Below, one piece after another: positions 1 to 9,748 of a stretch of DNA of 10,334 nt (positions are counted from its first letter, which is position 1; each line of letters begins with the position of its first letter). Made by a program: the position numbers and the translations under genes. The notes beneath the pieces were generated by a model. That model was not told where the DNA came from. It was given only the letters and a program-made list of their open reading frames with translations, and ran no database searches. This DNA is from Haloquadratum sp. J07HQX50 (GTDB lineage: Archaea; Halobacteriota; Halobacteria; Halobacteriales; Haloferacaceae), in NCBI GenBank assembly GCA_000416005.1, contig KE356563.1, positions 27,268 through 37,601 on the forward strand, given 5' to 3'.

Positions 1-40
1 GCGTTGTCTCAACACTACCCTCATCATCAGCTGAGGACAT
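1..40 (-). CDS. 5' end of a leftward gene, cut by the window edge
   Basis: On the minus strand an ATG (38-40) opens a frame reading MSSADDEGSVETT and running off the left edge without a stop. The peptide is acidic and Ser/Thr-rich, as is usual for haloarchaeal protein N-termini. The start is supported by a good Shine-Dalgarno sequence, GGAGGT (minus strand, 55-50), about 10 nt before the ATG, and by an AT-rich TATA-like stretch further upstream. Only 13 codons are visible, so no family can be named. The Shine-Dalgarno is notable because the other genes here lack clear ones. Confidence 0.55.
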   Translation of the reverse strand, partial: MSSADDEGSVETT

Positions 41-49
41 TTTCGCTAA

Positions 50-110
50 ACCTCCACGCTGTCTGTTGCGTCGGTCTGTGTTTTCATATATCATTATATA
101 TTGATGCATC
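50..110 (-). promoter_or_regulatory. Putative promoter and ribosome binding site of the leftward gene
   Basis: Reading the minus strand from high to low coordinates there is an 8-bp perfect palindrome GATGCATC (103-110). Next comes an AT-rich TATA-like stretch (about 85-102, with TATATAATG and ATATATG), and then GGAGGT at 55-50. A TATA box near 90-98 would put the transcription start near 65-72, giving a short leader that contains the Shine-Dalgarno. The palindrome sits where a factor-B element or a repressor/activator site could lie. An inverted repeat GTACC-6 nt-GGTAC (120-135) lies just upstream. No regulator can be named. Confidence 0.35.
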
Positions 111-1153
111 GTATTAGGAGTACCCGATCAGGTACATATTGTTCGACTCATTCGAACTGGCGAATATGATAGCAGTTTTATTTAGTCCTTTAATACTGTG
201 GGACACTCATTGGCTCAACGTAATCAATCGGCTTAGTATTTCAACGTCATATTTAGGCCCAGAATCGCCAGTGGCCCTCTCACCTGCCGTGAACGGCGGT
301 ATTTCCTCGCTACAGCAAAGATAAATTATAATATCGTAGTTTAAATTGACTGAGACACCTCTGCGCTGAATGATCTGCAAATGTCATATTACTGTCTCGA
401 TTAAGTGTGGCCTTCACTGTTACAATTAGAAATATCGATCTCAACGCCACGTCGGTCGTTCGTTTGCTTGATTTCAAGACGGCATTTCTACGCGTCGCCA
501 CGTATGTTGGTTTATGTCAGAATAAATGGTATATAAAATAATTTATTTAAAACGCTGCAACAGCTACTACTTGCCCTTTCAAAATATCCCCATGCAGCAA
601 TTCCACAGACAGGTGGACTGTACAAGCTCAACTCGAGTATTTCAACTATCTTTCATATCAACAATCAAATATTTCTGGTATAAATCTAAGTCTACTCAAA
701 CCAGCTGAGAGGGTGAAGCCGACATTAAGACGTGCTCGTTCGATAGAGTATTCAATGATACCGCTAGATCTGGCTGTTTCCACTGTAGTGCGAATATCCC
801 CAGAGCTCACCACTCTTCAGCAGGCGCTCCGAGCACAGTTCATGTTGTTCTTGATGTGCCGTGATGCGGATAGTGTCCTCACAATTTCGCTCGGCAAGTG
901 TAGTTCGGGAATTGTAGGTTCCTGTGACGACGAGAGACGAAGTGCTTCTAATCCACTTCTTAGACGGGAGACTCATCTGAGGTCCGGAACGATCGAACAA
1001 GACACAGACTGTCACAAGGACAGGCCCTCATCAGGACGTTATTTTCAGCTCGATATGCAGAATAACAATGAGGGGCTGCTGTACGACGCCACGCCCGAAG
1101 CACGGTCAACATACAGCACAACTACTTGAGTTGACTCGCGAAAGAAAGCGTAG

Positions 1154-1420
1154 ACTGAGACAGATGATACCAACCTCGTAGGGAACACAACTCAGCGCGT
1201 CGCTGCCAGAGCACCCGATGTGATGGAGAACTACGGCAAGTGCGACAGGTTCGTCATTCCGAATAATACCAGAGATAGCGATACCTGCTCAGTGAAAACT
1301 ACAAGAAAAGAGAGAGGTCTTATTCATACCAGTGGGTGGCTCTGTGAGCGCGAGCCCGCAGAACATATCAAGAACGTTCTTGAGTAGGGTGACACCTATA
1401 TTGATATTGTCACTATTCGT
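1154..1420 (+). pseudogene. Possible decayed coding fragment
   Basis: One plus-strand frame is open from 1154 to a TAG at 1385-1387. Across that stop it continues as a protein-like run (GDTYIDIVTIRLF) to about 1426. Before the stop it contains VAARAPDVMENYG and ERGLIHTSGWLCEREPAEH, followed by IKNVLE. The mix of acidic, amphipathic and hydrophobic segments looks like folded protein, unlike the neighbouring open frames. A different frame just upstream (about 1060-1165) reads TAQLLELTRERKRRLRQ, which could be the same gene before a frameshift. There is no good start codon. I do not recognise the family. Chance is a real alternative. Confidence 0.2.
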
Positions 1421-1560
1421 CTGTTCTGATGACACCGGGTGGGTCTCATTGCTCAGAATGTCGACACTGAGCTTCCAAATCGAACATAGATACAAAATAG
1501 CGCAACGCCTGCCAGATTAAACTCCGGGGTATCATATGTATCAAGCACGTAAAATAGACA

Positions 1561-1655
1561 CACAAAATATAAACCAATGTCACCAATCTCGCACTTACCC
1601 AACAAGACATACGACACATGCAAGCAGTTATTATGTCAATATTACCCGTCATAGT
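1561..1655 (+). promoter_or_regulatory. Candidate promoter of the five-gene block
   Basis: Two TATA-like elements precede the lipoprotein start at 1656. One is ACAAAATATAAACC at 1561-1574, which would give a leader of roughly 55 nt. The other is GTTATTATG at about 1627-1635, about 25 nt before the ATG, the spacing expected for a leaderless haloarchaeal transcript. No Shine-Dalgarno precedes the ATG, which favours the nearer element. Which one is used cannot be decided from sequence alone. Confidence 0.3.
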
Positions 1656-2429
1656 ATGATGAAACGACGTACGCTGATTCGGGCTGTTGCAGGGAGTATC
1701 GCTATCGGGGGCACAGCAGGATGTCTGAGCGCGTTTGGATCTGATCAGTCACCACCCCCACGAAAATCAAACGTGATTCGCAACATCAGCTTGATGAACG
1801 ATGGTGAAGCGCTCAAAGTGACTACGGTTCCAGATAAATCACAGTGGGTGATGACACGCCGAGAAATCAATGCTGAATTCTCACAAGCTCAGAGTAATAC
1901 GTCTGATAATCGCGTGAACCGGCGTCCACCCACTCTTGCAGGGGCCATTTCAGGTTTAGGCGCACTCTCTCCGGTCGGGACGGTCGAAGCAGCAAAAGGG
2001 AGGGGCGCAACCGGGAGAGGACGTGGTGGATTTTCATCTGCACCACGCACATCCAGAGGCCGCGCGTGGTATGGAGGTGGTGCATATGCCTCTACATGGT
2101 ACAACAACCACGATGATGACGTCTCCCGCGTTCCAGTCACAGTTGGCTTGCTCGGCATCGGATTCATTGGAGATAATGATGCGTTCACTGAGCGGTCCCC
2201 TGGGCCCGGGCCTATTGACTGGAATGAAACCTATGATGACTCGCCCAGAGAGATTCAATCCGATCTCAGCCCGCGCAGCGGATGGTACCGAGTTGGGACG
2301 GAGGTTAACGCTGAACTCGCTGGTGGTGGAACCCAATCTCTTGGATGGGAGTGCGTTGATCTGCGTGTTCGCTCCGGCGGAAATCAAGGGGAGATATCGA
2401 AGAAATGGAAAGTTTCGCCTCGAATATGA
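1656..2429 (+). CDS. Tat-exported lipoprotein with Arg/Gly-rich segment
   Basis: Predicted 257-residue surface lipoprotein. The frame is open from 1536, but ATG 1656 is chosen because it puts a classic signal at the N-terminus: twin arginines R4-R5 in KRRTLIRAV, a hydrophobic stretch, then lipobox TAGC with C23 as the lipidated cysteine. This is the haloarchaeal Tat-lipoprotein pattern. After a polar linker comes a second weakly hydrophobic stretch (about 94-112) ending EAAKGRG. It is followed by a low-complexity Gly/Arg/Ser region (about 112-145) and a probable beta-rich C-terminal domain with GLLGIGFIG, a Pro/Gly turn (SPGPGPIDW) and SGWYRVGTE. I do not recognise the family. By position it could correspond to the DUF4247 lipoproteins of bacterial DUF2617/spermidine-synthase clusters, but I see no clear sequence match. 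It leads the block, 95 nt before the membrane gene. Confidence 0.75.
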   Translation: MMKRRTLIRAVAGSIAIGGTAGCLSAFGSDQSPPPRKSNVIRNISLMNDGEALKVTTVPDKSQWVMTRREINAEFSQAQSNTSDNRVNRRPPTLAGAISGLGALSPVGTVEAAKGRGATGRGRGGFSSAPRTSRGRAWYGGGAYASTWYNNHDDDVSRVPVTVGLLGIGFIGDNDAFTERSPGPGPIDWNETYDDSPREIQSDLSPRSGWYRVGTEVNAELAGGGTQSLGWECVDLRVRSGGNQGEISKKWKVSPRI

Positions 2430-2524
2430 GTCTTCGATATAATGACCCACAGGCAGAATAAAGCAGCCTCTGGTGCGCACTCACATGTCCAGATGATCGC
2501 TGTTTTCACTCAATTCAACGACCA

Positions 2525-4354
2525 GTGAAGCGGCTCACAACGCCCTCGGCGCAAACAAGCCTACACGCAATTACGTTCCTCGTCGCGTTCTGTAGTTTCA
2601 CATACGAGCTCGCATACTCAGAGCTCTTGACCGTGATGTATGGCGGGACGGTAACTCAGTACGGCTTAACAATTGGTATCTTTTTTTCATCGCTCGGAGT
2701 CGGGTCCTATATCGCCAAGCAGTTCGACGAAACCCGTCCCGAGAATGTATTTCGTACTGAGCTATACTTGGCGTTCACAGCTCCTGCTGGTCTTCTATTC
2801 ATCCTTTGGATTAATACGGCTGCAGTGCCGCAACTGCTTCCAGAAATACTGCTTGCGTTGCTAGCTCGTCTGCCAGTAGTCGGGATTGGCGTGTTATCAG
2901 GCTTCGAACTGCCGTTATTACTTGCACTTGTCAAGAACTTAGACTCACCCTCGTTGTCACTGCGAATGCGGTGGATGACGAACGGTATTGACCGGGTAAT
3001 TAATACACTCGTCGGGCTGCTATTTCACACGTCTGACTCAAGCAGTGAGTATGATACCTATTCGACAGTTCTTGCAATGGACTATCTTGGAGGGCTGATT
3101 AGTGCTCTCATCTATGTATTCGTTCTGTATCCGAGTGTCGGGCTTATCGTCTCTGTATTTGTGTTAGCACTCATAAACGCCGCTGCAGCTTTGTTCTTTA
3201 CTTGCCGATTTAGCTCTCGGTCATGGGGAGTTCTTGCCACAGAAAATCGCGATATTATCACCCACGAACAGACAGTCGTGTTTATTATCACGATTGTCCT
3301 CACAGCAACCCTCGGTGGAGCTGTTGTATCATATCGGACGGTTGATGAGACACTGACAGAGTATTATCTCGAGGGGAATATTGAACAGGAGTATCCGCCT
3401 GAGACAGTAAACGTGGAGATCACGACCCAGTTCACGACCCAATATCAACACGTGGTACAATATAACCGGTCCTGGACGGGAAGTAGTAAGAATCCACTTT
3501 TTAGTGGGCAAACAGAGCGATGTCTTCGTCTTGATACAGCAATACAGGTGTGTGATAGCACAGCACGCCCATATCACAGTGGACTGGTAGATGTTCCTCT
3601 CTCAATGTACCCGAACACCACAGACACCGATGTGCTTCTTGTTGGTGGCGGTGACTGGATTGCACTTGACCACCTGCGTCGTCATAATGTCTCGGTTGAT
3701 CATGTCGATATTGATGCTGAATTTATGCGGCACGCCAAAACAAACCCATTCCTCGCGGAGTATCACGATGACGCATACACATATGAACACGCACAAACAT
3801 ATCAGGCTGACATCTACGACTACCTGCAGCGCACAGATACACAGTATGATGTCATTTTGCTTGACCTGCCTGGTGCCAAAACCGATGACTTGCTTTCAGT
3901 TTACTCAACACAATTCTATAGATTACTTGGCGATTCACTCACAGAGACCGGTGTGATTGCAACGTGGGGATATTCACAGTATACGTATCCAGCTCATCAG
4001 AAGGCATATTTTAATACAGTTTCTGCAGCAGGCTTCACCCAGTATCAGTCATACTATGCATATGATGATTATAACGGCGACGGCCAGGCTGTGCGCGGAG
4101 AGCGCTTCTATTTATTTGCCCCTGACACATCACGGCCAATAATCACACCAGCGAATGGGACTCAGTACGTCAAGAAATATCGAAGTCAGTACGAGTCAAA
4201 ACAGTGGCACCCGATACCCACATACCGTGGTGTGAGACCGAATACGCTGTTCAACCCTAATTATGAGATGCTCATAGACACGCAACGTAAGCAAGCGCCA
4301 ATCTCGGATCGATTTGAACGACTTCGGAATATGACAGTGTCCGATTTGATATAA
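2525..4354 (+). CDS. Polytopic membrane protein with spermidine-synthase-like domain
   Basis: 609 residues. GTG start; no in-frame ATG lies between it and the upstream stop at 2459. The N-terminal half (about 12-280) has several hydrophobic helices and resembles the membrane part of large bacterial spermidine-synthase-like proteins. The C-terminal half is a Rossmann methyltransferase/aminopropyltransferase fold: VLLVGGGDW (about 370-378) is the SAM-binding glycine loop, HVDID (393-397) the acidic ribose-binding strand, then YDVILLDLPGAK (441-452) and the family's YSTQFY motif. Two active-site signatures deviate. GGGDG is GGGDW, and the second aspartate of the usual D-x-x-D catalytic segment (DLPDP in membrane types) is missing: D447-L-P-G450. 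It may therefore not make spermidine; ligand sensing or a different transfer is possible. Its stop is 2 nt before the next start, implying co-translation. Confidence 0.82.
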   Translation: MKRLTTPSAQTSLHAITFLVAFCSFTYELAYSELLTVMYGGTVTQYGLTIGIFFSSLGVGSYIAKQFDETRPENVFRTELYLAFTAPAGLLFILWINTAAVPQLLPEILLALLARLPVVGIGVLSGFELPLLLALVKNLDSPSLSLRMRWMTNGIDRVINTLVGLLFHTSDSSSEYDTYSTVLAMDYLGGLISALIYVFVLYPSVGLIVSVFVLALINAAAALFFTCRFSSRSWGVLATENRDIITHEQTVVFIITIVLTATLGGAVVSYRTVDETLTEYYLEGNIEQEYPPETVNVEITTQFTTQYQHVVQYNRSWTGSSKNPLFSGQTERCLRLDTAIQVCDSTARPYHSGLVDVPLSMYPNTTDTDVLLVGGGDWIALDHLRRHNVSVDHVDIDAEFMRHAKTNPFLAEYHDDAYTYEHAQTYQADIYDYLQRTDTQYDVILLDLPGAKTDDLLSVYSTQFYRLLGDSLTETGVIATWGYSQYTYPAHQKAYFNTVSAAGFTQYQSYYAYDDYNGDGQAVRGERFYLFAPDTSRPIITPANGTQYVKKYRSQYESKQWHPIPTYRGVRPNTLFNPNYEMLIDTQRKQAPISDRFERLRNMTVSDLI

Positions 4355-4356
4355 TC

Positions 4357-4875
4357 ATGTCACCACAGAAGCTCTATCTTATCCAGTCAAAATGGCCGCA
4401 ATCAATAGATAGTATCGATATCAAAGCAACTCATGAAGCAGTCTTTTGCGCACACCCGGCACAGTTCCATATTGTCGGAGAATCACATGCTGTGAGCGTG
4501 CCAACACTTCCTTTCTATGAGATCTTCTCATGTCAGCCAGCACGGGCAGAACAAGCACCAAACACGACAATGGAGACGGTTCAGCTCACTCTCAATGCAG
4601 AGCTAAGCATCGCACACACTCTAGCAGATAACAGTGGGACTGTTCGTACGACTGTCCAAATTGAACGGTTAGAAACGTTCCCAGGCACGCAGTCATTCAC
4701 AGTTGCATACAAATTCGATAAGAACGCGTATACAGCAATCAAAATCGTCTCACAGAGAGAGTATCGAACGTATCATACATACCCTGAGCACGATCTTACA
4801 GTTGTCTCATGTCATCGTATCGTTTCTTCATCTGGAACAGAGTCTTCACAGATAATCGAACCGAGCACACAGTGA
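4357..4875 (+). CDS. DUF2617-like protein
   Basis: 172-residue soluble protein without signal or membrane segments. I assign it to DUF2617 from remembered motifs: FHIVGESHAVSV (about 33-45) matches the family's LLGASHQV element. FPGTQSF, then NAYTAIKIV and YRTYHTYPE, match its FPG...AFTAL...WRTWHTYP core. The family is known mainly from actinobacteria and has no established function. There it sits beside membrane spermidine-synthase-like genes, DUF350, DUF4178 and DUF4247 lipoproteins. The same neighbour is seen here: the start is 2 nt after the upstream stop. The conserved His/Tyr/Trp-like residues could form a ligand pocket, but this is speculation. The last 20 or so residues are Ser/Thr-rich and probably disordered. 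Confidence 0.72.
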   Translation: MSPQKLYLIQSKWPQSIDSIDIKATHEAVFCAHPAQFHIVGESHAVSVPTLPFYEIFSCQPARAEQAPNTTMETVQLTLNAELSIAHTLADNSGTVRTTVQIERLETFPGTQSFTVAYKFDKNAYTAIKIVSQREYRTYHTYPEHDLTVVSCHRIVSSSGTESSQIIEPSTQ

Positions 4876-4914
4876 CCAGCGACAGAGACGCGATAGTAAT
4901 CTGAAGTAATTCAA

Positions 4915-7086
4915 ATGAGCTGTACATATACGAGTAACCCAGAGAGGAACCAACGTTCATTCCTGACAACCACATGGTCATGTCCACACGAATCTCACCC
5001 AGAGGACAAACACTGTATATTTCACATGACCCCTGAGAAACGGCGGTATTATGAAATCACACCACAGGATGTCCAAGCCGCACTTGTATCTGAGCTGGAA
5101 GCTGAGGATAATGACAAAAAGGAGTTTGTTGGGGCACATATCCCGCACCTCAATCTCGATTACATTGATATTGAGACAGATAATCAGTACCCGATTGATT
5201 TTCGAGATACGACGATTGAAGACGGTATTTCGGCGGCTCACGCGCGGTTTGAAGAGCGTGTTGACCTTCGAAATAGCACTATTGGTGGCTTAGATGCGCC
5301 AAATTGCGTATTTGAGGATGGATTACTTGCCTCTGAGGCAGTCTTCACTGATGCAGTCTCCTTGTCTGAGACGGCATTTGACGGCGACCTCGTCGACTTT
5401 ACAGGTGCAATTTTTGAGCGTTCTTTCGTAGGCGAGCAAGTAACGTTTGCTGTCGATGTATCATTCAGGAACGTAGAGTTCAGACACACCGTGTCATTCG
5501 ACGGTGCATGGTTTACTGAACAAGCAAGCACAATTGATGATAATGTTGACTTTGAACATGCAATCTTTCATGATACCGCTTCGTTCAGACACACCTCATT
5601 CTATCACACATCGTTTCAGGAAGTCACGTTCCACGATACCGCAGTTTTTGAACAGGCCACAGCAAATGGCACCCTCCGATTGAGCGGATCTGTATTCCAC
5701 GCTGAGGCTGATTTTGACGAGTTGCACTGCGAGAAAGATCTCTCATTCAGCAACGTGGTGTTTAATGGAGAAGCCTTCTTCAGGGGAGTGTCAGTTGCGG
5801 GAGGCACGGATGTGCTTGCAGATGACTTCTCAATGGCTAATGCCACATTTGAGAAGAAGGCTACATTTGAGCACGGAACATTTGGGTTCACAAACGTAAA
5901 GGGAGCAGAATTCAACGCGTGCGTCAGTTTCGAACGAACCACGTTTACCGATGATGCAGTCTTTGTTGATGTCACGTTTGATGACACCGTTGATTTTGAT
6001 GAAGTCATTTTTGACGGTGATGTAGAATTTACAGACAGTGTATTCAGTGAGAACGCTGTGTTTCGAGGGTCCGAGTTCAATGGAGGAACGAATTATCTTG
6101 AATCTGATGCAGTGTTTGATAACGTCACATTTACTCACCCAGCTAAGTTCAGCAATACAGATATCGTCTCGATAGAATTTAATGCAACCGAGTTTCAGTC
6201 GACTGTCGATTTTACTGACGCTGAAATCACTGAGACACTCATTATCAAAACTCCGACTTTTACTGATAACCCATATTTCAATTTTACTGATGCAACGGTC
6301 AAAGAGGGAACAATCGTGCAACCAGAGCATGGGTGGGGGTACTTTGACTTCACACAAGCAACAGTCGGAGATGTTTCGTTAACAGCCGTTAATCCAACGG
6401 ATAGACGAGAGTTACTCGACTACTTTCGTTTCTGTGATACAACCTTCGATACATTTGATTTTTCACAGCATCTTGAGTATCTTGATCGCAACGACTGGAT
6501 TCTGCATAGCTTTACTGAACCAGAGGCTGGGTACACACCAGCGCTTGAGCTCACGCCAGCGCGCATCGAAAAAACATATTTGAAAGCGAAATCAAGTGCG
6601 TCAGACCAGAGCAATATCAAAGCCGCTGGTGAATTTCGGATTAAACGGCAGCAGTACGCACGAAAAAAGTTTGCTCAGATTGCACTCGATTCGACGGAAA
6701 CAATCCGGACACGAATAAAAAACGGGCTCCGAACGACAGAAAACTGGTTTCTTGGCTTTTCTTGCGGCTATGGACTCCGTCTGTATCGAATCACCACCGT
6801 GTTCATACTGTTTCCGTTGATAGCTGCGATTATCTTTGCTCTTGGGGGGCCACTGTTTGAGACTGGTGCTGGGCAGACTTCGCTCTCTCAAATTACAACT
6901 GAGGCCGGCATTCGCACTGTATTGCTCAATGTATACTTCTCATATATTACATTCCTCACGATCGGGTATGGTGGCATTGGTCCGCTCGGTCTCGGCGCTC
7001 GATTCCTTGCGGCTATCCTCGTTTATCTCAACGTGATCCTTGCTGGGCTCTTCATTTACTCGTTGATTAAGCGGAGTGAGATTTAG
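4915..7086 (+). CDS. Pentapeptide-repeat protein fused to a K+ channel pore
   Basis: 723 residues. The N-terminus has C3, then CPH (23-25) and C34-x2-H37, a Cys/His set seen in haloarchaeal pentapeptide proteins that may bind zinc. Residues about 96-488 form a long solenoid of degenerate pentapeptide repeats of the F-rich kind (Pentapeptide_3 type), with Phe or Val recurring about every 5 or 10 residues as in DAVFVDVTF and DTVDFDEVIF. A charged helical linker (about 540-615) leads to TM1 (about 626-648), a pore loop with selectivity filter TIGYGGIGP (682-690) and TM2 (about 693-717). This is the two-helix Ion_trans_2 pore. TIGYG is the potassium signature, but the usual following Asp is Gly. 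Four such chains would surround one pore, with the solenoids in the cytoplasm. No RCK or cyclic-nucleotide domain is present. The start lies 39 nt after the preceding stop. Confidence 0.88.
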   Translation: MSCTYTSNPERNQRSFLTTTWSCPHESHPEDKHCIFHMTPEKRRYYEITPQDVQAALVSELEAEDNDKKEFVGAHIPHLNLDYIDIETDNQYPIDFRDTTIEDGISAAHARFEERVDLRNSTIGGLDAPNCVFEDGLLASEAVFTDAVSLSETAFDGDLVDFTGAIFERSFVGEQVTFAVDVSFRNVEFRHTVSFDGAWFTEQASTIDDNVDFEHAIFHDTASFRHTSFYHTSFQEVTFHDTAVFEQATANGTLRLSGSVFHAEADFDELHCEKDLSFSNVVFNGEAFFRGVSVAGGTDVLADDFSMANATFEKKATFEHGTFGFTNVKGAEFNACVSFERTTFTDDAVFVDVTFDDTVDFDEVIFDGDVEFTDSVFSENAVFRGSEFNGGTNYLESDAVFDNVTFTHPAKFSNTDIVSIEFNATEFQSTVDFTDAEITETLIIKTPTFTDNPYFNFTDATVKEGTIVQPEHGWGYFDFTQATVGDVSLTAVNPTDRRELLDYFRFCDTTFDTFDFSQHLEYLDRNDWILHSFTEPEAGYTPALELTPARIEKTYLKAKSSASDQSNIKAAGEFRIKRQQYARKKFAQIALDSTETIRTRIKNGLRTTENWFLGFSCGYGLRLYRITTVFILFPLIAAIIFALGGPLFETGAGQTSLSQITTEAGIRTVLLNVYFSYITFLTIGYGGIGPLGLGARFLAAILVYLNVILAGLFIYSLIKRSEI
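5200..6378 (+). repeat. Pentapeptide-repeat solenoid coding region
   Basis: Within the channel gene, about 390 codons encode tandem degenerate pentapeptides. The centre position is mostly Phe, with Val, Leu or Ile alternating. Between them lie acidic and small polar residues (Asp, Glu, Thr, Asn, Ala). Such repeats fold as a right-handed square beta-helix. The units have diverged in DNA sequence, so this is a protein-level repeat without clean nucleotide repeats. The acidic content fits a high-salt cytoplasm. Confidence 0.8.
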
Positions 7087-7144
7087 CATACAGTGACTCA
7101 ACAAAAGCATAATACACACTCAAGCGGGTACGTTTGTGTATACA

Positions 7145-8110
7145 ATGAGCAACGCACAAGCGCACAGTCTCACGGGAGATATTACACTCAATGGGGGTGA
7201 GGAGACACCTATTTCAGTTGTTGATGCTGAAAATGTCCATCTCAGACGAAAGTCAGTGACCGGCAGTCTAAAACTCGTCAACCCTGAATACGTGTTTTCC
7301 TGTCAGAGGCCAACCGAACAGACTGTGCAGCCAGGTGAGACAGAGACCACTGTGAGCGGGTCGATCGAAGACATCTATATTCCACATGATGGTGTTGACG
7401 GTACCGTTGTTATCGATGGCGCACAGGACGTGTATATCGAGCCAAACGCGATAAGCGGTGATATCGAAATCGTTGGCGAAGAACAGCTATTCTATAATCA
7501 ACTCACAGACTCCCCGTATGGATACGGTGCGTATGACGCACATGGACTTGGATGGAAGCGATCAGTCTCCGTGTCCGACCCAAAACATGGTGTCAGTGTC
7601 ACTGGTGGGCGATCTACCGCGGAAATAACCGATGTAACGACAGATATCGAACTTATTGTATCTGGGTGGGACAATACGGTTGATATTACTGGGCGAACAG
7701 CGACGGTCACAGTCTATCTACTTGGGTCACAGAATACCGTTACCACGAGCCCATATATCGATATCGAGATTGACACACGGGCCGGCGTTGAGAATACCAT
7801 TGAGCAGGAACCAGTCCCTGCCAGTGATATCATCGATACGACAAGAGAGGAAGCGTATGCTGGCCACCTATTGGGTCGAGATACTGTTACATTTCAGGAA
7901 CCAGCCACAGACAAAGATTACTGCCCAAACTGCGGGGCGAACGCGAATGCTGTTGTAACTCGCCGTCAGGAAGATGCATTCTTCGTGACCAATTCCCCTA
8001 TCTACCGATTTGACGCTGGGGGCAGTTCGTATGAGTGTGAAAACTGCTCACTCAATGCTGGTCCAGAAGTAAGGCTGTCGGAGGAAGAACGTAAGCAGGT
8101 ACTTGGCTAA
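7145..8110 (+). CDS. Beta-repeat protein with C-terminal zinc ribbon
   Basis: 321 residues from ATG 7145. A GTG nine bases earlier (7136) is in frame, but MSNAQAH is the more usual start. The N-terminal part has strand-turn repeats: the unit around DIYI (76-79) recurs as DVYI (95-98), a 19-residue spacing, each followed by V/I-x-G-x-V-x-I. A related unit is NVHL (30-33). This suggests a beta-solenoid. A second beta-rich block (about 160-230) has DNTVDITGRTATVTV and GSQNTVTT, reminiscent of DUF3060-type NTV repeats. The C-terminus holds CPNC (260-263) and CENC (298-301), a probable zinc ribbon. No signal peptide or membrane helix is seen, so it is probably cytosolic. It follows the channel gene by 58 nt on the same strand, so it may be a soluble partner. 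The family is not recognised with certainty. Confidence 0.72.
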   Translation: MSNAQAHSLTGDITLNGGEETPISVVDAENVHLRRKSVTGSLKLVNPEYVFSCQRPTEQTVQPGETETTVSGSIEDIYIPHDGVDGTVVIDGAQDVYIEPNAISGDIEIVGEEQLFYNQLTDSPYGYGAYDAHGLGWKRSVSVSDPKHGVSVTGGRSTAEITDVTTDIELIVSGWDNTVDITGRTATVTVYLLGSQNTVTTSPYIDIEIDTRAGVENTIEQEPVPASDIIDTTREEAYAGHLLGRDTVTFQEPATDKDYCPNCGANANAVVTRRQEDAFFVTNSPIYRFDAGGSSYECENCSLNAGPEVRLSEEERKQVLG

Positions 8111-8650: not shown

Positions 8651-9748
8651 ATGGGTAATCCAGCATTTCTCGTGAGTCAATCCGGACAACTCACGAACGG
8701 GTTGCAAGCCATCATGTCTACTCAAGGATATGATCTGACAACGATTGTCATTGACAGCACTGAGGATAGTGTGCACTATCTTTCTTCTACGGCCATAGCC
8801 CGTATCGAACAGCACGTCAGCGATGCGGCTGAGTCGTACTTGACCGTAATTGATGGGGCGATGCATCCTGGCCAGTTTGTTGATCTTCAACTGCGGCTTC
8901 CACTGGCTACACTCCGAGACAGACGCGGAGTAATATGGGAGTGGCTGGGCAAGGAAAATCCAGTCGCGGCCACTCAATTTGACCTGCAACAGTGCCGTAT
9001 CACACAGCGCAAAGCGGCTATGGAGCAGCGTGGTGACGCTACGAGTGGTCCATCTGGTACTAGTGGTGAATTGACAGCGGCTGAACAGCAGGTACAACAG
9101 TTACGAAGCACGCTCGAGAGTCGCCAGGCAATGGCTCGCCAGCGAATTCAGAGCAGCTATACTGATGTTGATAGTCAAATCGTGTTGGTCGGGAGAATGG
9201 ACGCACCGACCACCACTGTATGGGCTGGGCTCACCGATCAAACTGTATCTTCGATACCCGGCCGTCCAGCACAGCCAACGACCGCGATTACGACATGCGG
9301 ACCGCACACGCTTGCAGTTACTGATACACCCGGAATACCTGATTCGGATAACCTCCCTGAGTGGTTTAGTGAGACCGTCCCTGGGATGATGGCGACAATT
9401 GAAAGAGCTACGTGCGTGCTCGGCGTTGGGGACTGCCAATCATTGCTTTCCGTGCTCGATGACCAGTATGATCTCACCTGCCGGATACTGACATCTGCGG
9501 ACGCCCCAACAGCTCGTGAGACGCTTCAAGATGTGCTTGAAACAGCAGAATATGTAGTCCAGTTGCCCTACAGCGATACCGCTCACACGTTGGTGTCTAA
9601 ACTTCATGAGCAAACTACAGTCCATGCGATTGAATACGATGATGCAATCTATGTACGTACAGAGGTCGCGCTGTCAGCAGCTGACTGGCTCCGCCGTCAA
9701 ACATTGGCAGTTGACGGCGACATCCAAGCAGATCCAACTGGCACATAA
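8651..9748 (+). CDS. HflX-like protein with degenerate GTPase domain
   Basis: 365 residues with the HflX layout. HflX is a ribosome-associated GTPase that splits stalled ribosomes. The N-terminal domain (1-125) carries MHPGQFVDL (71-79), matching the HflX SPAQQRNL-type motif, and LRDRRGVIWEWL (88-99), matching DRTGLILDIF. A Gly-rich loop (SGPSGTSGE, 132-140) stands where HflX has GGxGxRGPGE. A helical coiled-coil arm follows (about 141-170), then the G domain. Its P-loop reads G181-RMDAPTTT, aligned to GxxNAGKST, so the GK pair is Pro-Thr. G3 is intact as DTPG (225-228), and no N/TKxD G4 is evident. GTP binding is probably lost or altered. I infer a diverged paralogue acting as a pseudo-GTPase. 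ATG 8651 fits the HflX N-terminus; no Shine-Dalgarno is seen. The frame is intact, so it is not an obvious pseudogene. Confidence 0.75.
   Translation: MGNPAFLVSQSGQLTNGLQAIMSTQGYDLTTIVIDSTEDSVHYLSSTAIARIEQHVSDAAESYLTVIDGAMHPGQFVDLQLRLPLATLRDRRGVIWEWLGKENPVAATQFDLQQCRITQRKAAMEQRGDATSGPSGTSGELTAAEQQVQQLRSTLESRQAMARQRIQSSYTDVDSQIVLVGRMDAPTTTVWAGLTDQTVSSIPGRPAQPTTAITTCGPHTLAVTDTPGIPDSDNLPEWFSETVPGMMATIERATCVLGVGDCQSLLSVLDDQYDLTCRILTSADAPTARETLQDVLETAEYVVQLPYSDTAHTLVSKLHEQTTVHAIEYDDAIYVRTEVALSAADWLRRQTLAVDGDIQADPTGT

Follow-up and report, generated by a model that had tools for sequence, protein, structure and literature searches.

A conserved haloarchaeal gene block in which DUF2617, a predicted compact AdoMet decarboxylase, accompanies a membrane aminopropyltransferase-like protein

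What joins a lipoprotein, a membrane spermidine-synthase-like protein, a domain of unknown function, an ion channel and a beta-repeat protein in a single haloarchaeal locus? The question is raised by five genes on the + strand at positions 1656-8110 of a 10,334-nt stretch of Haloquadratum sp. J07HQX50 DNA (contig KE356563.1, positions 27,268 to 37,601; this whole stretch is called the window below). Listing and translation of the open reading frames (ORFs) confirmed the five at the positions given by a first-pass annotation, made from the sequence alone, which had proposed an undescribed system coupling a ligand similar to S-adenosylmethionine (SAM, here AdoMet) or a polyamine to K+ flux or membrane stress. 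The most interesting part of the block is its third gene, encoding a DUF2617 protein that is predicted to be a compact, two-half AdoMet decarboxylase (AdoMetDC). The ligand half of the proposal is thereby sharpened, as DUF2617 resembles AdoMet decarboxylase, and the block may serve aminopropylation in the cell envelope, a mechanism to which, taken whole, we give a probability of 0.60 at most.

Regarding the block itself, DUF2617 occurs in 43/292 Halobacteria genomes and 20/77 genera, with the same result by single-sequence and profile search. The surroundings of all 43, together with three further loci, gave 46 loci, each from a different genome or record (L005, on the same contig as L068, was left out of the counts), and genes were counted by profile searches of all ORFs, since a simple gene caller had missed the DUF2617 or lipoprotein gene at several of them. 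All five genes stand side by side in 42/46 loci (40/43 in the main set and 2/3 in the added one), bearing out the expectation that they stay neighbours in other genomes. The association exceeds chance, and as a module the block is both real and conserved. Close relatives of it occur in Haloquadratum walsbyi J07HQW1 and J07HQW2, Haloquadratum sp. LUM.47 and Halogeometricum limi. Strong matches to the membrane spermidine-synthase-like protein (E < 1e-100) are confined to exactly the 43 genomes with DUF2617, the next best elsewhere being at E 3e-18 or weaker, and the lipoprotein (E < 1e-60) and beta-repeat protein (E < 1e-29) were each found in 30/184 genomes, the same 30 that carry DUF2617 (in four of them the beta match is limited to the C-terminal two thirds). 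Across the 43 main loci the median intergenic gap is 44.5 nt, and pairwise distances among the five families correlate with r of 0.78-0.93, uncorrected for species relatedness.

The order lipoprotein, spermidine synthase, DUF2617, beta, channel is seen in 17/43 loci, while the channel precedes the beta gene, as in the window, in 10/43; the beta gene is divergent and upstream of the lipoprotein in another 10/43, and beta and channel are convergent in 3/43. The channel gene is missing from two (L064 and L074, in genomes G113 and G211), and one further locus, L062, is cut. Among the added loci, L150 and L151 have all five genes, with beta in pieces and beta and channel convergent, and L152 keeps lipoprotein, spermidine synthase, DUF2617 and channel together, with beta 6.6 kb away. 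L064 was considered as a block cut by a contig end, which was rejected because a Haloferax larsenii plasmid stretch (L140), 98.9% identical to it over 9.7 kb, has no channel gene in the following 7 kb. The distribution is patchy and also plasmid-borne, with 12 plasmid records that include Haloarcula hispanica pHH126; the plasmid block of Haloferax larsenii pHl5678-1 lacks the channel gene.

The DUF2617 gene (4357..4875) encodes a member of PF10936 (32.7 bits, cut-off 22.3), a family that matches 30/30 members of alignment A1 at E <= 10. Its AlphaFold2 (AF2) model, with a predicted local distance difference test (pLDDT) score of 87.1, has few helices, and AdoMetDC chains were its top matches in structure comparison, three of the top five being chains from the Trypanosoma brucei AdoMetDC/prozyme pair. 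Foldseek with the same model gave no significant match, and the fold assignment relies on the second look with VIA and on sequence profiles. Seven rows of processed human AdoMetDC chains link model residue 44 to chain residue 69, placing Ser43 on human Ser68, and a marginal N-half profile alignment agrees with this position. This Ser43 (codon 4483..4485; T. maritima Ser63), the predicted pyruvoyl-forming serine, is invariant in 120/120 DUF2617 sequences, as are Cys59 (4531..4533), the predicted catalytic cysteine according to its conservation and the marginal placement of the N-half on the TC motif of SpeD (T. maritima Cys83), and Thr126 (4732..4734), the predicted processing hydroxyl in the C-half alignment to SpeD (human Ser229, T. 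maritima Ser55). His140 (4774..4776), corresponding to human His243 and T. maritima His68, is the predicted processing histidine; it lies in YHTYPE, which aligns to HTWPE, and is kept in 119/120. In addition, Phe120 and Glu144 align with human Phe223 and Glu247, which we take to be adenine- and ribose-binding. In the profile comparison with SpeD, the C-half stands out above column shuffles (100 per half); for the motif comparison, two of 32 SpeD loci (L128 and L129) were dropped because neither yielded an ORF carrying the motif. As judged from the model, DUF2617 very probably has the AdoMetDC fold, and the odds are good that it is an AdoMet decarboxylase in activity. Such a fold is not stated in the DUF2617 passages of the three papers that name this domain in the literature searched, and a search combining haloarchaea, AdoMetDC and aminopropyltransferase found nothing.

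In other respects the match to AdoMetDC is incomplete. The N-half is not clearly above shuffles in its comparison with SpeD (20.2, with a best shuffle of 20.0 among 100), so that no sequence match in both halves is claimed, and the odds of decarboxylase activity and of the whole mechanism are slightly lower for it. The cut-offs of PF02675 and PF01536 were not reached, with 2/30 and 1/30 members matching at best E of 0.058 and 0.033, respectively (the window protein has 13.7 bits with PF01536, cut-off 22.2). Moreover, the Glu that precedes the pyruvoyl Ser in AdoMetDC is mostly lost, being Glu in 22/120 sequences and Ser in 90/120; for the T. maritima enzyme, the available text of PMC3975893 indicates that either Glu62 or Ser55 may suffice. 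A direct comparison between the two halves of DUF2617 found no similarity.

The variable residue before Ser43, the existence of AdoMetDC folds without activity and the prozyme chains among the best structure matches would all suit an inactive regulator, binding AdoMet or polyamine and acting on the membrane enzyme as the trypanosome prozyme does. We regard this as improbable, since the near-complete retention of Ser43, Cys59, Thr126 and His140 (119-120/120) would be needless for an inactive binder, and no canonical AdoMetDC (PF02675) to be regulated was found in the 43 genomes.

The AdoMet decarboxylase assignment can also be weighed by genome distribution. Canonical SpeD (PF02675) was found in 2/292 Halobacteria genomes and in 0/43 of those with DUF2617, and the two proteins exclude each other in the genomes examined. 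The two SpeD-bearing genomes among the 292 (G090:C34:64775, locus L099, and G139:C2:78495, locus L098) both lack DUF2617; the speD gene of G139 has a spermidine-synthase match some 0.6 kb away, and the SpeD protein of L098 reads VIGESH, resembling DUF2617. Among 14 control genomes, PF01564 was found in 11 (10 over the cut-off) and PF02675 in 8; three have PF01564 without PF02675, two of which, Corynebacterium glutamicum and Haloferax volcanii, carry DUF2617, the third being L. lactis. A protein search from a divergent haloarchaeal DUF2617 returned 13 proteins, all of PF10936, and the sole one with an organism name is haloarchaeal. Two places on Methylocella plasmids, found by tblastn with the same query at E 8, were taken as chance; at the one inspected, no aminopropyltransferase is annotated nearby. 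To our knowledge, M. tuberculosis lacks speD. Its speE is Rv2601 in the available text of PMC11841054.

Relatives of the membrane enzyme also occur on bacterial plasmids, for example at 25% identity, and seven of ten such records were examined (H25-H28, H30, H32 and H33; H29, H31 and H34 were left out). Within stretches of 12.5-13.3 kb, SpeD is present in 6/7 loci and DUF2617 in 0/7, Tritonibacter L147 having neither; two of the six carry SpeD about 3 kb off and on the opposite strand. In Novosphingobium, the gene set runs SPFH, DUF4178, DUF4178, small protein, DUF350, aminopropyltransferase, FAD oxidoreductase and speD. Meanwhile, the metagenomic P0236 is a predicted 765-aa protein joining the spermidine-synthase-like protein and DUF2617, a fusion that could come from one lost stop codon, since the two genes abut. 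The distribution, the bacterial loci and this fusion are read as an exchange of SpeD for DUF2617. As a separate observation, the Novosphingobium FAD oxidoreductase lying between aminopropyltransferase and speD (L142:7442-9058) starts with a signal resembling those of lipoproteins of the twin-arginine translocation (Tat) pathway, and this sequence feature suggests amine chemistry outside the cytoplasm.

The same replacement of canonical SpeD, both near the membrane aminopropyltransferase and among genomes, argues against a pyruvoyl enzyme of another specificity, such as a decarboxylase of arginine or ornithine that arose from the SpeD fold and would make the acceptor amine and not the donor. 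Without DUF2617, no source of decarboxylated AdoMet (dcAdoMet) is found in these genomes by PF02675, and the alignment of Phe120 and Glu144 with the presumed adenine- and ribose-binding residues points the same way. This alternative is very improbable, even if many bacteria and archaea have SpeD homologues that decarboxylate ornithine or arginine, a wide distribution described in the available text of PMC10407285.

If DUF2617 supplies dcAdoMet, the candidate to spend it is the product of the second gene (2525..4354), with seven predicted transmembrane (TM) helices followed by a C-terminal spermidine-synthase domain. It has the aminopropyltransferase fold and the motifs of the dcAdoMet site (PF01564, 52.8 bits; NF002956, 191 bits with a cut-off of 472), including GGGD (3644..3655), in which D377 is invariant (alignments A5 and A6). 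In haloarchaea, the polyamine acceptor site is changed from YHE to YHxG and from DxxDP to DxPGA, while six bacterial relatives retain DxPDP and YHE; due to this alteration, the acceptor is probably not free putrescine. Aminopropyl transfer by this protein is likely. Weak matches to it, mostly in the catalytic part, occur in 132 other Halobacteria genomes (best E from 3e-18 to 4e-8), and their ORFs, often of 500-800 aa, may be a second family worth separating.

Those two altered positions, together with the presence of the pentapeptide channel gene in 44/46 loci, would also agree with a device for membrane stress and potassium flux, whose spermidine-synthase domain had become a sensor or a methyltransferase-like modifier with polyamine chemistry gone. 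We consider this unlikely, and the K+ coupling of the first-pass annotation received no direct support. The channel gene is missing in two of the 46 loci and in the plasmid stretch of Haloferax larsenii, and K+ flux has a low probability of playing any role.

The location of the membrane enzyme is less settled than its fold. The seven TM helices were read from the model, and their limits were drawn by eye using the window protein. On average over 26 haloarchaeal sequences, loops 2-3, 4-5 and 6-7 are richer in Lys/Arg than loops 1-2, 3-4 and 5-6 and the segment following TM7, a pattern repeated in 6/6 bacterial sequences counted; L149, with coordinates out of frame, was left out of this topology count. 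This charge distribution and the odd number of helices would put the C-terminal catalytic domain outside, a placement that the sequences slightly favour. The inner loops are acid-rich as well. Known spermidine synthases are cytoplasmic, as is AdoMet, and a cytoplasmic enzyme whose products, ordinary polyamines, gate the channel from its inner side is a serious contender, a little short of even odds, and compatible with DUF2617 as a decarboxylase. Besides the loop charges, an invariant Cys pair (333 and 343) and the export of the neighbouring lipoprotein speak against it.

Taking these observations together with the aminopropylation mechanism, DUF2617 would be a single chain of about 165 residues that has two half-sites, as the class 2 enzyme of eukaryotes does, but hardly any helices. 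By self-cleavage ahead of Ser43 it would gain its pyruvoyl group, and it would convert AdoMet into dcAdoMet. The neighbouring seven-TM protein would spend this dcAdoMet to aminopropylate an acceptor, with its catalytic domain at the outer face beside the Tat-exported lipoprotein, which would itself be this acceptor or hold it. The resulting membrane change might then be sensed or answered by the beta-repeat zinc-ribbon protein and the pentapeptide potassium channel, although such roles are doubtful.

The lipoprotein gene (1656..2429; alignment A3, 16 homologues) encodes a Tat-type product with twin Arg and a lipobox Cys (codon 1722-1724), followed by a conserved PPPR, a RGATGRGxGGYxSAP stretch and the C-terminal end WKVSPRI. 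At the extreme C-terminus (window 2406-2426), the conserved tail reads W-(K/H)-(V/I/L)-x-P, its Trp and Pro being shared by all 16 sequences, and may serve for recognition or modification. This protein matched no Pfam or NCBIfam family, apart from weak Tat-signal models in some members. Extra partial copies lie outside the block in two genomes (G155:C7:46590-48018 and G172:C1:1543120-1543560).

The fourth gene (4915..7086) fuses a pentapeptide-repeat solenoid (PF13576, 118.8 bits) to a two-TM ion channel pore with a marginal PF07885 match (22.0 bits, cut-off 22.5). The GYG filter is present in TIGYG (6958..6972), read from the sequence and presumably of the K+ type. The channel gene is followed, after 49 nt with a GTG start at 7136 or 58 nt with ATG at 7145, by the beta-repeat gene (7136..8110), whose DUF3060-like product ends in a zinc ribbon with Cys pairs encoded from 7922 and 8036, its four Cys being invariant (alignment A4). 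DUF3060 scores 21.2 bits on the window protein, below the cut-off of 23.1, and matches 19/19 members at E <= 1; no informative family was found among them, with one weak Toastrack match (1/19, E 0.028).

Outside the block, the upstream part of the window (1-1655) is a long stretch with only short overlapping ORFs. Downstream, at 8651-9748 (+), a 365-aa ORF has a sub-threshold GTPase match (MMR_HSR1, E 0.026) and presumably resembles a haloarchaeal HflX-type protein; among the compared loci L002-L005, it is present only in L003 (88%).

If the proposal holds, DUF2617 would become a defined enzyme, a very small and unrecognised AdoMetDC, and the dcAdoMet supply would be explained in organisms having a spermidine-synthase-like gene without speD, such as C. 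glutamicum and H. volcanii. An outer-face enzyme would bring polyamine-type chemistry to a new location, by extracytoplasmic aminopropyl transfer. A two-half enzyme of about 165 residues would also bear on the origin of the eukaryotic class 2 enzyme from SpeD-like halves, which is discussed in the available text of PMC10407285. The most far-reaching version is tentative, with the odds against it: that DUF2617 is a third structural class of AdoMetDC and the missing supplier of dcAdoMet in haloarchaea and in speE-bearing, speD-less actinobacteria, and that the seven-TM protein carries the product across the membrane to aminopropylate the lipoprotein or another envelope target outside.

Compared with known enzymes, DUF2617 shares with AdoMetDC of class 1b (SpeD, PF02675) and class 2 (PF01536) a predicted fold and the positions of the pyruvoyl Ser, Cys, Ser/Thr and His. 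Its residues are split between two halves, as in class 2, but it has few helices and about 165 residues, compared to 290-320 in the matched class 2 chains. The membrane enzyme shares fold and donor-site motifs with SpeE and PRK03612-type aminopropyltransferases, but it has lost the acceptor-site Glu and second Asp and gained an invariant Cys pair. By analogy, a SpeD/SpeE pair can serve the envelope: speD2-speE2 of P. aeruginosa (PA4773-PA4774) is reported to place polyamine on the cell surface in the available text of PMC3572637, although the pair is not of the same protein type as the block's, PA4774 being a 349-aa protein described as thermospermine synthase in that of PMC11107197.

Regarding whole operons, general scans of six window proteins did not name DUF350, DUF4178, PspA or ATP-grasp, and the neighbours of other loci were not scanned for them. 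Ravi et al. (2024, PMC11237479) describe, in the available text, bacterial operons linked to PspA/CesT-Tir or band-7 that carry polyamine genes, one group combining a seven-TM spermine-synthase protein, DUF350, a lipoprotein and DUF4178, and another a K+ channel, a lipoprotein and a DUF4247-DUF2617 variant. The bacterial clustering named in the first-pass annotation is thus in print there, and its term "undescribed" is too strong, because related operons are already described. The same text predicts DUF2617 to be a beta-sandwich enzyme with two conserved histidines, for which His44 and His140 would fit. Neither Halobacter- nor haloarchae- appears as a term in the main text of that paper. The haloarchaeal block shares with the DUF4247-DUF2617 variant the presence of DUF2617 beside a lipoprotein gene set with a K+ channel, whereas the ATP-grasp ligase and DUF350 of that variant are not named in the six window proteins scanned. 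The window lipoprotein, without a match in Pfam or NCBIfam, may still be remotely related to the DUF4247 lipoprotein of the variant. With its lipoprotein, seven-TM spermidine synthase, DUF2617, DUF3060-like zinc-ribbon protein and pentapeptide channel, the haloarchaeal block of five genes represents a new variation on this published bacterial operon theme.

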